In this document: positions 11,197 to 50,576 of the stretch, piece after piece
Layout: the number at the start of each line of letters is the position of its first letter
Position numbering within the stretch: the first letter of the stretch is position 1
Source: Clostridiales bacterium
GTDB lineage: Bacteria > Bacillota > Clostridia > Saccharofermentanales > Saccharofermentanaceae
Direction of reading: 5' to 3'
Assembly: GCA_017615755.1 (NCBI GenBank)
Contig: JAFZZM010000012.1
Span: 1-64,000 of the forward strand
DNA length: 64,000 nucleotides
Made by a program: the position numbers and the translations under genes
Notes under the pieces: model-generated
The model's database searches: none
Told to the model about the DNA's origin: nothing
The model's input: only the letters and a program-made list of their open reading frames with translations

Positions 11197-11493
11197 GTCT
11201 GAATCCGCGTCTGAATTGTACCCCGATTCAGACACACTTTTAGACATTTCGCCTGTTTGTCTGAATCCGCGTCTGAATTGCACCTCGATTCAGACACACT
11301 TTTAGACATTTGGCTTATTTGTCTGAATCCACGTCTGAATTGCATCTCGATTTAGACACACTTTCAGACATTTCGCCTGTTTGTCTGAATCCGCGTCTGA
11401 ATTGCACCCCGATTTAGACACACTTTCAGACATTTCGCCTGTTTGTCTGAATCCGCGTCTGAATTGTACCCCGATTCAGACACACTTTTAGAC
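11197..11493. repeat. Inverted-repeat array A3 (five copies, 62-bp period)
   Basis: Five units start at 11197, 11259, 11321, 11383 and 11445, exactly 62 bp apart. Each has two boxes GTCTGA at offsets 0 and 12 and two opposite boxes TCAGAC and T(T/C)AGAC at offsets 31 and 43, so a 49-bp dyad is followed by a 13-bp spacer. The inner arms GTCTGAAT/ATTCAGAC are identical in most copies, and copies differ by a few substitutions. It lies between two genes of the same strand. Confidence 0.9.
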
Positions 11494-11524
11494 ACGCTCC
11501 CGTCCTGCCTGAAAAGCACCCCAC

Positions 11525-23965: not shown

Positions 23966-24706
23966 ATGATCTACTATGAGCATTTCGATCCTGAACATAT
24001 CGGCATGGTGCTTACTATAGCAACGTGCATCACTCTCGTTCTTGTTTTCGCCAGAAAGCTGAACGAGAAGCACGCGAACAGGCTCCTGATGGCCTTGTCC
24101 GTTACCCTTTTCTGCGCCGAAGCGATCCAGGACATTCTCGCCTACCGTGAAGGCTTTCCGATCACGTCTTTTCTGCCGATTCACCTTTGCAACCTCGGCA
24201 TTTTCGTGAACCTGCTCGCGTCATTCACGCGCGGCAAAGTTTCAAGCTATTTCTCGGAAGTCTCCCTCGTGCTCATCATGCCCGGCGCCATCGGCGCGAT
24301 ATTGTTCCCCGACTGGAACTACCGCCCTTTCTGGGACTGGCTCAACCTGACGATCTTCTTCACACACTTCCTTCTGACCCTGATCCCGCTTCTTTTCCTG
24401 GTTCGGAAGCGCACGCATGTGAAGCTCAGCCATTTCTGGTACAGCCTCGCTTTCATGCTCGTCGTCGTTCCGCCGATCTATTTATATGATATGAAATTTC
24501 AGGATAACTACATGTTCCTGAGAAGACCCGTCTCCGGCTCGCCCCTCGAATGGGTCTACAACCTCTCCGACGGCAAGCACTACATCCTCGGACTTTTCTT
24601 CCTGCTCGTCGGCGTCCTCGCCTTCGAGTATGCACTCATCCTCGGCCTGCGCGCGCTCGTGAAGTATCTGCGATCCCGCCGCAAAAGCACTTCCTCTTCC
24701 ACGTGA
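23966..24706 (+). CDS. TIGR02206/YwaF-like integral membrane protein
   Basis: The product has 246 residues and about six or seven membrane helices, with conserved LPIHLCNLGIFVNL and MPGAIGAILFPDW, the pattern of the YwaF/TIGR02206 family of unknown function. No ribosome binding site precedes the ATG. Instead TATAAT lies at 23954-23959, so transcription could begin at or near the A of the start codon (leaderless). A GTG at 23945 is an alternative start. The stop codon TGA is embedded in the first CACGTGA box of repeat array A5. Confidence 0.8.
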   Translation: MIYYEHFDPEHIGMVLTIATCITLVLVFARKLNEKHANRLLMALSVTLFCAEAIQDILAYREGFPITSFLPIHLCNLGIFVNLLASFTRGKVSSYFSEVSLVLIMPGAIGAILFPDWNYRPFWDWLNLTIFFTHFLLTLIPLLFLVRKRTHVKLSHFWYSLAFMLVVVPPIYLYDMKFQDNYMFLRRPVSGSPLEWVYNLSDGKHYILGLFFLLVGVLAFEYALILGLRALVKYLRSRRKSTSSST

Positions 24707-25093
24707 TTCGTGTATTCTTGCAGTTTCACGTGCTTTTTGAAAAGCACCACTCCACGTGATTCGTAGATTCTTGCAGTTTCACGTGCTTTTTGAAAAGCAT
24801 CACTCCACGTGATTCGTGTATTCTTGCAGTTTCACGTGCTTTTTGAAAAGCATCACTCCACATGATTCGTAGATTCTTGCAGTTTCACGTGCTTTTTGAA
24901 AAGCACCACTCCACGTGATTCGTGTATTCTTGCAGTTTCACGTGGGCTTTTTTTCTTTTTGAAGCACGTGAAATTCAGATAATCCGCAAATCACGTGGAG
25001 AAAGAGACACGTGATTATTCAACTTCATCAAAACCACGTGGAATTTTCCTAATTTCCCAACACGTGAAAACCAATAAACTTCAGAATCACGTG
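24700..25093. repeat. Inverted-repeat array A5 (CACGTG dyads, 27/26-bp alternation)
   Basis: CACGTG, or CACATG once at 24859, begins at 24700, 24727, 24753, 24780, 24806, 24833, 24859, 24886, 24912, 24939, 24965, 24992, 25008, 25035, 25061 and 25088. Steps alternate 27 and 26 bp except one of 16. These are 33-bp dyads CACGTG-N21-CACGTG separated by 20 bp. The first five 53-bp units are near-identical and carry a GTGCTTTT/AAAAGCAC hairpin in the spacer; the last three keep the spacing but have unrelated interior sequence. The array runs from one gene's stop codon to within 4 bp of the convergent gene's stop. Confidence 0.95.
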
Positions 25094-47425: not shown

Positions 47426-47635
47426 ATGAGATGTCCCAAATGCAACTACGACGGATGCCAGATCATTTCTGAGACGAGAACATCCGGTAAAGATTATTCT
47501 GTTGGCAAAGGCTGCTGCGGCGCCTGGATCTTCGGCTGGGAGGGCCTGCTCTGCGGGTTCTGCGGTGAAGGCAAGACCACCACGACCAGAAACTTCTGGA
47601 TCTGCCCGAATTGCGGCCATAAGTTCAAAGCATGA
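47426..47635 (+). CDS. Small zinc-ribbon protein
   Basis: The product has 69 residues. Two CxxC pairs, MRCPKCNYDGC at the start and WICPNCGHKF at the end, form a zinc ribbon. A Gly/Cys-rich hydrophobic middle (GKGCCGAWIFGWEGLLCGFCG) may act as a membrane hairpin. The ATG has AAAGGAG 7 nt upstream, and TATAAT lies at 47339-47344. The stop overlaps the start of the DUF2085 gene by 4 bp. Function unknown. Confidence 0.85.
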   Translation: MRCPKCNYDGCQIISETRTSGKDYSVGKGCCGAWIFGWEGLLCGFCGEGKTTTTRNFWICPNCGHKFKA

Positions 47636-48204
47636 AAAACGAGATCGTGAAAAATGAAAAAGTGATTGCAAAAGCGGCGGCGACGGCGCACGAAGTGGAT
47701 TGCTTCGAGTCGGCTTCGACGGCGCGCGAAGTGGATTGCTTCGAGTCGGCTTCGACGGCGCACGAAGTGGAGTGCTTCGAGCCGGCTTCGACGGCGCACG
47801 AAGCAGCATACGAGGTGACCGGATCTTCCGCCGGCGCGCCCGCGGTCGTTGCGACAAAAGCCGACCAGCGCTGGGCGTTCTGGATGGAGTTTTTCGGCCG
47901 TCATTTCCGCTGCCACCAGATGCCGGAGCGGAGCTTTTTCATCCGTGGCTATCAATTCCCTCTCTGCGCACGTTGCACCGGGATCTACCTCGGCCATATC
48001 CTCGCGTTCCTTGTGAACCCCTTCATCACGCTCCCCTTCTGGCTCGGCCTCCTCATGCTCCCCATGATTGCCGACGGCACGATCCAGTACTTCACGCGCT
48101 ACCGCTCCAACAACTTCAAGCGCTTCACGAGCGGCCTCGTCTTCGGCTTCGCGCTCGTCTCCTTCGTTTTCACCTGCGTACGGTGGCTGATCACAGTGAT
48201 TTGA
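47632..48204 (+). CDS. DUF2085 membrane protein with N-terminal 12-residue repeats
   Basis: The product has 190 residues. The C-terminal half fits DUF2085: CHQMPERSFFIRGYQFPLCARCTGIYLG with conserved His and Cys residues, then three membrane helices. The N-terminal ~60 residues are four copies of a 12-residue repeat (TAHEVDCFESAS and variants) encoded by a 36-bp tandem repeat. Such a repeat is not part of the family and is probably a recent slippage product. It is coupled to the zinc-ribbon gene. Function unknown. Confidence 0.85.
   Translation: MKNEIVKNEKVIAKAAATAHEVDCFESASTAREVDCFESASTAHEVECFEPASTAHEAAYEVTGSSAGAPAVVATKADQRWAFWMEFFGRHFRCHQMPERSFFIRGYQFPLCARCTGIYLGHILAFLVNPFITLPFWLGLLMLPMIADGTIQYFTRYRSNNFKRFTSGLVFGFALVSFVFTCVRWLITVI
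47682..47803. repeat. 36-bp tandem repeat inside the DUF2085 gene
   Basis: The word CGAAGTGGA or a variant recurs at 47691, 47727, 47763 and 47799, exactly 36 bp apart. Each unit contains CGAAG and CTTCG arms, so the repeat is also a dyad array. It keeps the reading frame. Confidence 0.9.
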
Positions 48205-48320
48205 CGACGCGCGAGTGCGGGGGGAGTTCTTTTTTCCGAGGATTCGTTGATAATTTGGTGCCTAAAGAAAGTCGGGATTGCTGTTTGTGGCGATGTCGAC
48301 TTTCTTTTTTCGCTCCTAAC

Positions 48321-48618
48321 CACGCCAATTTGCGATTTTCGTGTTTTGGCGTGGGTGATTTTGGAGAAGCACCCACGTGAATTTTCAATTTTCGCATTTT
48401 GGCGTGGGTGATTTGAGCAAGGCATACACGCCAATTTTCAATTTCCGAGTTTTGGCGTGGGTGATTTTGGAGAAGCATACACGTGAATTCTCGATTTTCG
48501 CATTTTGGCGTGGGTGATTTTGGAGAGGCATACACGTGAATTTTCAATTTTCGCATTTTGGCGTGTATTCTGAAGAAAAAGCACCCACGTGAATTCTCAA
48601 TAATCGACATAACACGTG
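48321..48618. repeat. Inverted-repeat array A6 (CACG...CGTG dyads, 27/26-bp alternation)
   Basis: Boxes CACGCC, GGCGTG or CACGTG begin at 48321, 48348, 48374, 48401, 48427, 48454, 48480, 48507, 48533, 48560, 48586 and 48613: steps alternate 27 and 26 bp without exception. This is six 33-bp dyads separated by 20-bp spacers, the same layout as array A5. Interiors (AATTTTCAATTTTCGCATTTT-like) are similar among units but unrelated to A5. Arms range from perfect CACGCCAA/TTGGCGTG to CACGTG opposite GGCGTG. Confidence 0.95.
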
Positions 48619-48698: not shown

Positions 48699-50576
48699 AT
48701 GAAACGGATTCTTTCCACATTACTGACTTTCGCCCTGATCGCGGGATGCTGCGGTTGCAGAAGAAGCGGCGGCGATTCCGATAATACAAGGACCGCCCGC
48801 GAAACAAAGACGACCACGGCGAAGACGACTACTACCACCGAGGTCACCGAGGCCACCGAGGCAACCGAGGAGACGGAAGAGCCGTCCACGAAAGCCACTA
48901 CGAAACCTACCAAGGATGACCGCGGCACGACCGATCCGTCTGATTCCGACGCCTCTGACCCAAGCAAAAGCGACAACTCCGGCACGCCAGGCACCATCAC
49001 GGACATGACCATGCTCATCTTTGATTTTCCGCAAAAAGAACTCACTGACGACAACGAGATCCGTGAGATCATCGCGGAGAAGACCGGCGTGCGCGTGCAT
49101 GAATCATACCTGACCGGATCTACCGCAGAGGACGGCGTGGATGTACTGATCGCCTCCCGGGAGTTCCCCGATCTCATCAGCGCCGGCTCCGGCACACAGA
49201 AGCTTTATCAGGAGAATTGCCTGATCCCGTGGGATGATTATCTCGAAGATCCGCAGTACGCGAACCTTAGAAACTTCTACTCCGACAAGGAATGGGAAAT
49301 GTTCCGCCAGAGCGATGGCCACATCTACTGGTGCAACACCCAGAATAACAACTACAAAGGCAAAAGCGCTTCCCGCACGCATAACGGCCTGGCTTTCTGG
49401 ATCCAGGTGCGCGTGCTCGAGTGGGCCGGATATCCTCTCGTGGAGACTCTCGATGACTACTTCACACTTCTCGAGGCCTTCTACAAAGCGAATCCGACAA
49501 ACGAAGACGGCACTGCTGTCATCCCCTACACGGCGCTTTGCGAAAGCTGGCGCTACTATGCAATTGAAGCCGCACCGCAGATGCTCGACGGACACATGTT
49601 TGAAGGCAACGTCATGGTCAACGACATTAATCCGGACCATCCGGTCGTGGAGAGCTACGACACCTCCGAAACCGCCAAGCGTTATCTCCAGAAGCTCAAC
49701 GACGAGTATAAGAAAGGCATTATTGACCCGGAGTTTGCAGACCAGGACTTTGACCAGTACGTCGAGAAACTTCAGACCGGTGCCGTACTCGGTTTATGCG
49801 ACCAGTGGTGGGATTTCGCCTATACGACGAACTTCTCATTCGAGGCACAGGGCTTCAGCAAGCTCGGCTATGACTACGTACCGCTCGGCATCACGATCGA
49901 TTCCGGCATGAAAAATCACTGGGACTACTACGCGGATACTGAAACACTCAATACAGCGAGCGGCGTGGCCGTCACCACCTCCTGCAAAAATCCCGACCTC
50001 GCTTTCCAATTCATGGACCGTATTCTCGAAGAAGACATTCACGACCTGCGCATGTGGGGCATTGAAGGTGTAGACTACGAGATCGGTGCGGACGGGATCT
50101 GGAGCAGAAACCAGGATATGCGCATACAGTGGATCATGGATGACTACTTAACCAGTCACGCCTGCCGCTACCTCTACCTGCCGAATTACTGCGGCTACAG
50201 GGAAGACGGCATCAACCCCAGACGCCCCGAAGACTCTGTCAGCGAATTCTTCTCCAACAAATCCGATGCATTCATCAAGTGCTGCAACGCATATGGCTAC
50301 ACATCCTACCGCGATTTCCTGCGTTCCGAACCAGCAGAGACCGGGCCCTGGTACCCGATGTATGTTTATACCAACAGTCTTACTAATGCATCGGCAGTTT
50401 CAACGCTCACGGACATTGACAACCTCAAGCATGAGTATCTGCCTAAGCTTGTCACCAGCGATGATTTCGACACTACATGGAAAAAATACGTCAAAGCCTA
50501 CATCGGACTTTCTCCGGAAGTCTACTTCGATTACATGCAGAAAAAACTCGATGAAGCCGTGAAAAACGCCGGCTAA
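48699..50576 (+). CDS. Extracellular solute-binding lipoprotein (family 1)
   Basis: The product has 625 residues. The signal peptide ends in AGCCGC, a lipobox, at about residue 19, followed by a Thr/Glu/Lys/Asp stalk to about residue 95. The rest is a large sugar-type solute-binding protein: EIREIIAEKTGVRVHE, LISAGSGTQKLYQENCLIPWDDYL, GAVLGLCDQWWDFAY and ASGVAVTTSCKNPDLAFQFMD are typical segments. No permease or ATPase genes lie next to it, so it is an orphan that may use a distant transporter. TATAAT at 48654-48659 and AAGGAGAC before the ATG are its expression signals. Confidence 0.88.
   Translation: MKRILSTLLTFALIAGCCGCRRSGGDSDNTRTARETKTTTAKTTTTTEVTEATEATEETEEPSTKATTKPTKDDRGTTDPSDSDASDPSKSDNSGTPGTITDMTMLIFDFPQKELTDDNEIREIIAEKTGVRVHESYLTGSTAEDGVDVLIASREFPDLISAGSGTQKLYQENCLIPWDDYLEDPQYANLRNFYSDKEWEMFRQSDGHIYWCNTQNNNYKGKSASRTHNGLAFWIQVRVLEWAGYPLVETLDDYFTLLEAFYKANPTNEDGTAVIPYTALCESWRYYAIEAAPQMLDGHMFEGNVMVNDINPDHPVVESYDTSETAKRYLQKLNDEYKKGIIDPEFADQDFDQYVEKLQTGAVLGLCDQWWDFAYTTNFSFEAQGFSKLGYDYVPLGITIDSGMKNHWDYYADTETLNTASGVAVTTSCKNPDLAFQFMDRILEEDIHDLRMWGIEGVDYEIGADGIWSRNQDMRIQWIMDDYLTSHACRYLYLPNYCGYREDGINPRRPEDSVSEFFSNKSDAFIKCCNAYGYTSYRDFLRSEPAETGPWYPMYVYTNSLTNASAVSTLTDIDNLKHEYLPKLVTSDDFDTTWKKYVKAYIGLSPEVYFDYMQKKLDEAVKNAG

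Follow-up and report, generated by a model that had tools for sequence, protein, structure and literature searches.

Phased arrays of inverted boxes in a Clostridiales genome and its relatives: constant geometry, lineage-specific sequence

The genome of a Clostridiales bacterium carries ten loci of the kind represented by array A6, a chain of 12 hexamer boxes at 48321..48618 (no strand assigned) of the 64,000-nucleotide stretch analyzed here (the window). Across this genome and its relatives, the identity of the boxes is lineage-specific, while the geometry of the arrays is constant. We regard these arrays as probably, though by no means certainly, double-stranded DNA docking sites for a dimeric, species-specific protein stacked in helical register; the protein is unidentified and its binding is inferred. 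The window comes from contig C48 in an assembly (G000) of 2.84 Mb in 79 contigs that is 84% complete.

Results

Layout and surroundings of array A6

The boxes of A6 start at 48321, 48348, 48374, 48401, 48427, 48454, 48480, 48507, 48533, 48560, 48586, and 48613. Read base by base, they alternate at 27 and 26 bp with zero exceptions, as the preliminary description had claimed, and form six 33-bp dyads separated by 20-bp spacers, with a period of 53 bp. Counting also bore out the reported mix of CACGCC (two boxes), GGCGTG (five), and CACGTG (five). Each dyad, likewise without strand assignment, encloses 21 bp between its boxes: dyads 1 (48321..48353) and 3 (48427..48459) read CACGCC-21-GGCGTG; dyads 2 (48374..48406), 4 (48480..48512), and 5 (48533..48565) read CACGTG-21-GGCGTG; and dyad 6 (48586..48618), whose interior is the most diverged (z 2.4 against the family profile), reads CACGTG-21-CACGTG. 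Chance falls far short of explaining this geometry. The CACGTG triple-box pattern occurs nine times in the window and never in 100 dinucleotide shuffles, and the core CACG-N25-CGTG-N20-CACG recurs 108 times across the genome versus no match for a reversed-pattern control. An Rfam scan of the window at the gathering score returned only a tRNA; the arrays within the window match no described structured RNA family.

Upstream of A6 lies the gene of a DUF2085 membrane protein (47632..48204, plus strand; PF09858, E 1e-29), followed on its 3' side by an intrinsic-terminator-like hairpin and a T run (48267..48304, plus strand). Folding of 48258-48316 (-26.6 kcal/mol, z -6.1) confirmed this terminator, although a simple terminator scanner did not list the hairpin. 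Because the terminator sits between the DUF2085 gene and the array, A6 begins beyond it. T runs are absent from the A6 dyads, which thus fail the criterion for intrinsic terminators; the terminator before A6 is a separate element. Downstream lies a plus-strand gene (48699..50576) for a lipoprotein-like protein of 625 amino acids without a Pfam match. A TATAAT was noticed by eye at about 48653, between A6 and this gene, an interval in which a promoter scan found none. The ortholog and paralog loci that the search returned included no counterpart of A6 at the equivalent site in relatives. The N-terminus of the DUF2085 gene itself contains a 36-bp tandem repeat (EVDCFESASTAR-like; window 47681-47803).

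Ten array loci in one genome

A genome-wide search for the geometry, the check suggested in the preliminary description, found ten loci in G000 (A6, A5, C12, C14, C17, C28, C45, C60, C64, and C70), all keeping the 27-bp dyad step; C14 carries two box types side by side. A detector of exact-palindrome chains was too strict and found no arrays beyond A5 and L228. By blastn, the interiors of A6 are clearly similar to those of the other CACGCC-type arrays of the genome, with E values from 9e-67 to 1e-11. On an A6-type profile built leaving A6 out, the A6 dyads reach z 2.4-5.6 relative to permutations, and the interiors of A6-type arrays have the common consensus aAAAtGCGAAAATgGAgAATc. A5 and the CACGTG part of C14 match this profile weakly (z 1.1-3.1). 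Judged by these similarities, A6 is a member of a dispersed homologous subfamily, and A5 belongs to a different subfamily of equal geometry. The earlier claim of two independent arrays needs correction, A6 being one of ten loci. Homology between A5 and A6 interiors, which would have refuted that claim, amounts merely to a weak shared positional pattern, yet A6 interiors are homologous to those of other arrays in the genome.

A5, with CACGTG boxes, spans 24700..25093 without strand assignment (left arm 24700-24997, right arm 25008-25093). It extends to 25093 beyond its tandem-repeat part, the boxes there enclosing nonrepeat interiors. Its sole 16-bp step, CACGTG-N10-CACGTG at 24992..25013 (box starts 24992 to 25008; no strand), is of the same kind as the center of arrays in genomes G009 and G021, described below. 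The CACGTG part of C14 has one 16-bp step like that of A5, and the CACGCC-type arrays of G000 lack such a center, which is therefore not universal. Inside the G000 arrays, units of 53 or 106 bp are near-identical.

The same geometry with other boxes

In 22 genomes of the same genus, the sequence lying upstream of the ABC-permease gene that adjoins array C64 was scanned. The array position is occupied in G000, G004, G009, G010, G017, and G021, with boxes changed: the 27/26 rhythm is carried by CAAGGA in G010 and G017, by CATGGG in the sister species G009 and G021, and by TCACGT in G004, and a degenerate TAAGCC form is present in G008 and G015. A second conserved position, beside a FAD-oxidoreductase gene, holds CACGCC in G000, CATGGG in G009 and G021, and CAAGGA in G010. 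Searches of the whole genus found the CATGGG pattern 54 times in G009 and 60 times in G021, with no match in other genomes or in controls, and the CAAGGA pattern only in G010 and G017; the CACG pattern occurs in G000 and G004, and its single hits elsewhere in the genus look fortuitous.

Outside the family, arrays of the same geometry occur in Lachnospiraceae (L140, L102, and the isolate Pseudobutyrivibrio ruminis DSM 9787, L174), and single dyads occur in L061 and L103. Besides these genuine arrays, a CACGCC-pattern scan of genome contigs gave mostly chance matches in G+C-rich genomes. Viral contigs searched with four box patterns gave many matches at lax spacing, attributable to chance or simple repeats, and no genuine array; a phage-borne origin was rejected on that ground. 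The box changes along the single L102 array while its 53-bp period stays constant. That rumen Lachnospiraceae array (L102:353-560) begins with TGCACGA/TCGTGCA units and continues with CACGCC and CACTAC boxes.

Spacing and helical phasing

A dyad step of 27 bp was counted in 56 of 64 CATGGG dyads in G009 and 54 of 61 in G021 (110 of 125 together), as well as in 21 of 22 dyads in G010. Spacer steps in G009 and G021 measure 16, 26-27, or 35-37 bp, with one exception (24). The resulting clusters at 16, 26, and 37 bp lie about one helical turn apart (10.5-bp increments), an observed phasing that favors the dimeric protein put forward in the preliminary description, although no such protein has been identified. 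Exactly one 16-bp step is present in 21 of the 21 scored CATGGG arrays of G009 and G021, and aligning the two arms outward from it shows equal polarity on both sides, gG preceding the proximal box and a following the distal one. Apart from their boxes, the units within most G009, G021, G010, and G017 arrays are dissimilar to one another; a visible relationship links four G009 arrays (L320-L323), and most other arrays are unrelated. G009 also carries a second box family, TGCCGTAT/ATACGGCA, alongside CATGGG (L222:136-428 and L222:13732-14203), with the 21-bp interior and A/T profile of the CATGGG dyads and a period of 51-52 bp.

Conservation of boxes and the interior A/T profile

Eight orthologous pairs of G021 and G009 arrays were compared, with boxes taken from either species. 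Substitutions affect 4 of 569 box positions (0.70%) versus 162 of 1863 positions (8.70%) in the array remainder (Fisher p 6e-15), making the boxes about 12-fold better conserved than the interiors; the flanks differ at 4.5%. Only 4 gap events were counted across the eight arrays, unit order is kept, and the interval lists are mostly identical. This comparison indicates that the boxes are under purifying selection. Selection on geometry, as proposed earlier, gains support from the 27/26 spacing found with different boxes in the same genus, the two conserved positions, and the roughly 12-fold conservation of the boxes. Outside the arrays, isolated boxes show neither enrichment nor avoidance, and a lone box therefore carries no visible signal.

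The interiors are A/T-rich at positions 2-4, 11, and 18-20 and A/T-poor at positions 6-8 and 14-16. This profile recurs with every box type, with z 9.3 in G009, 5.5 in G010 plus G017, 6.1 in Pseudobutyrivibrio (L174), and 7.8 in L102; z is 2.8 for A5 plus the CACGTG part of C14 (C14b) and 5.4-9.3 for the other groups. The positions were picked from profiles already seen in G000, so the z-scores of the other groups count as replications, not as a blind test. Scores above permutation were likewise obtained with the G000 interior profile in G009, G010, G004, L102, and L174.

Genomic position

The arrays are intergenic. Six of nine classifiable G000 arrays lie between convergent genes, against a background of 67 of 609 gaps, and in G009 the count is 3 of 12; these figures rest on home-made gene calls. 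Terminator-like hairpins separate genes from several arrays. A search for a candidate factor found no gene common to the array neighborhoods, the neighboring genes being functionally unrelated. Flanks of two arrays are exchanged between G021 (L311, L316) and G009 (L320, L322) with the breakpoints inside arrays; either rearrangements break at the arrays, or one of the assemblies is a chimera.

Discussion

According to the docking reading, one protein dimer would occupy each 33-bp dyad, made up of a box, 21 bp, and the inverted box; the dimer would read the boxes base by base and the A/T runs just inside them and at the dyad axis by shape. Dimers 53 bp apart (also 43 or 64 bp) would place neighbors on the same helix face, where cooperative binding is possible, and a protein-DNA rod of 4-8 dimers would form in a gap between transcription units. 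The recognition surface of the protein may drift between species and the boxes follow, whereas the geometry of the dimer, and hence the spacing, would stay fixed; sites that follow a drifting binding specificity are the best explanation for a lineage-wide change of boxes whose interiors are unrelated. The likeliest job of such rods would be architectural, such as insulation of neighboring transcription units or anchoring and folding of the chromosome, rather than control of single genes. The protein, its binding as a dimer, its cooperativity, and its function, for which insulation or chromosome architecture is favored, are inferences. Against this reading stand the lack of an identified binding protein and of any gene common to the array neighborhoods, the missing 16-bp center in the CACGCC-type arrays of G000, the absence of a visible signal in lone boxes, and a covariation of inner box positions within L174 dyads (permutation p 0.011), which a base-pairing model also predicts.

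That covariation, which was positive only in L174, speaks for a rival in which the boxes are stems and the 21 nt loops of an array of RNA or single-strand hairpins, the transcript or cruciform DNA being the functional form. The RNA fold of A6 dyad 1 (z -5.0) and the complementarity of the boxes in every species despite their differing sequence point the same way. However, a strong terminator precedes A6, and terminators part several other arrays from genes; left and right boxes in G000 often mismatch (CACGTG with GGCGTG), and pairing within dyads is 9.44 versus 9.45 in permutations; in G009, pairing beyond the box falls below permutation (9.47 versus 10.35). Nor does RNA offer a reason for spacer steps in 10.5-bp increments. 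We prefer a dimeric protein on double-stranded DNA because of the phasing, the A/T pattern, the nontranscribed location, and pairing that is no better than permuted, and consider hairpins improbable. Operators through which an ordinary transcription factor regulates adjacent genes would fit an array that, like A6, stops shortly before a TATAAT-like motif, and the permease-locus array precedes a promoter-like region conserved in several species. Yet the flanking genes of six of nine classifiable G000 arrays are convergent, leaving no promoter to regulate, and neighboring genes have unrelated functions, so that this explanation also appears unlikely.

Mechanisms that generate repeats were weighed in the same manner. 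Mobile REP/BIME-like elements spread by a REP-associated tyrosine transposase (RAYT) would account for clustered, extragenic palindromic repeats and for the homology of A6-type interiors between G000 loci, and genes for Y1 transposases are present (two in G000, one in G009). They are absent, however, from the array-bearing genomes G021, G010, G017, G004, G008, and G015; most CATGGG interiors are unrelated between loci; the dyads of a G000 array share one interior orientation, direct and not alternating; and inspection of the printed dyads and flanks revealed no conserved GTAG/CGTC tag. With transposases missing from most array-bearing genomes tested, this candidate fails, and we judge it very unlikely. 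Simple tandem duplication by slippage, whereby geometry is inherited and not selected, agrees with the near-identical 53- or 106-bp units of G000, but most units of G009, G021, G010, and G017 are alike in their boxes alone and those boxes are under purifying selection, which leaves this option barely tenable. The same division applies to the copying mechanism raised in the preliminary description: it finds support in the near-identical units inside G000 arrays and none in the CATGGG and CAAGGA arrays, where most interiors are unrelated. The least credible alternative is a CRISPR-like array in which an integrase ruler adds inserts of fixed length between constant boxes. Constant boxes and nonrepetitive inserts of constant length do occur in G009 and G010, but orthologous arrays keep their units and order (4 gap events in 8 arrays), the inserts share an A/T profile, and the boxes, alternately inverted and only 6-9 bp long, fail the CRISPR criterion of identical repeats (about 23-50 bp) separated by unique spacers of equal length. 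Immediate neighbors of the arrays are unrelated genes; these alone were examined for cas, the rest of the genome being unannotated.

Several known systems resemble the docking arrays in part. Eukaryotic satellite DNA keeps its unit length and geometry while its sequence turns over between species; the arrays likewise retain geometry under sequence turnover, but they are short (4-8 dimers), occupy many intergenic sites, and have units that are not homogenized in most species. Centromere-like clusters of parS/parC and plasmid iterons offer several phased sites to a protein that binds cooperatively. The arrays share the multiple phased sites (protein binding being inferred here), and differ in numbering at least 10 loci per chromosome and in having the box sequence replaced genome-wide between species; no partition or replication genes were found among the array neighbors examined. 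BIME/REP clusters are similar in being extragenic, clustered, palindromic, and often at gene ends. BIMEs consist of alternating REP units tied to RAYT, whereas the dyads here repeat in one direction and most CATGGG and CAAGGA units have just boxes and an A/T profile in common. The stoperators of cluster A mycobacteriophages, also many binding sites per genome, are asymmetric sites dispersed over phage genomes and recognized by a phage repressor (PMC9283540). Unlike stoperators, the arrays are paired inverted boxes, phased, on bacterial chromosomes.

No description of such arrays was found in the literature searched, which comprised open-licence papers, subscription literature and preprints being outside its scope. 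The arrays may yet prove to be binding sites for a member of an already known protein family. That they form an undescribed architecture system (insulator or anchor), with a dimer of drifting specificity building phased rods in untranscribed gaps and boxes rewritten per species, remains a tentative proposal with less than even odds. If right, bacteria would have on their chromosomes a counterpart to satellite or insulator arrays, with geometry inherited and sequence rewritten between species. It would also be a natural case of genome-wide coevolution of a DNA-binding protein with its sites, at roughly ten arrays or more in each genome and in lineages that differ in their boxes, and would imply that Clostridia possess a nucleoid or insulator factor not yet known.

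Two further elements were observed in G000. An IS605-like TnpA/TnpB pair (L185:9174-10687) lies about 1 kb from array C70. A second class of arrays, with nested GTCTGAA/TTCAGAC boxes, steps of 12, 19, and 31 bp, and a period of 62 bp, occupies two loci (window 11197-11494 and L182:13920-14215), and a CAGAGG array of period 61 in G013 (L254:9613-10132) resembles it.
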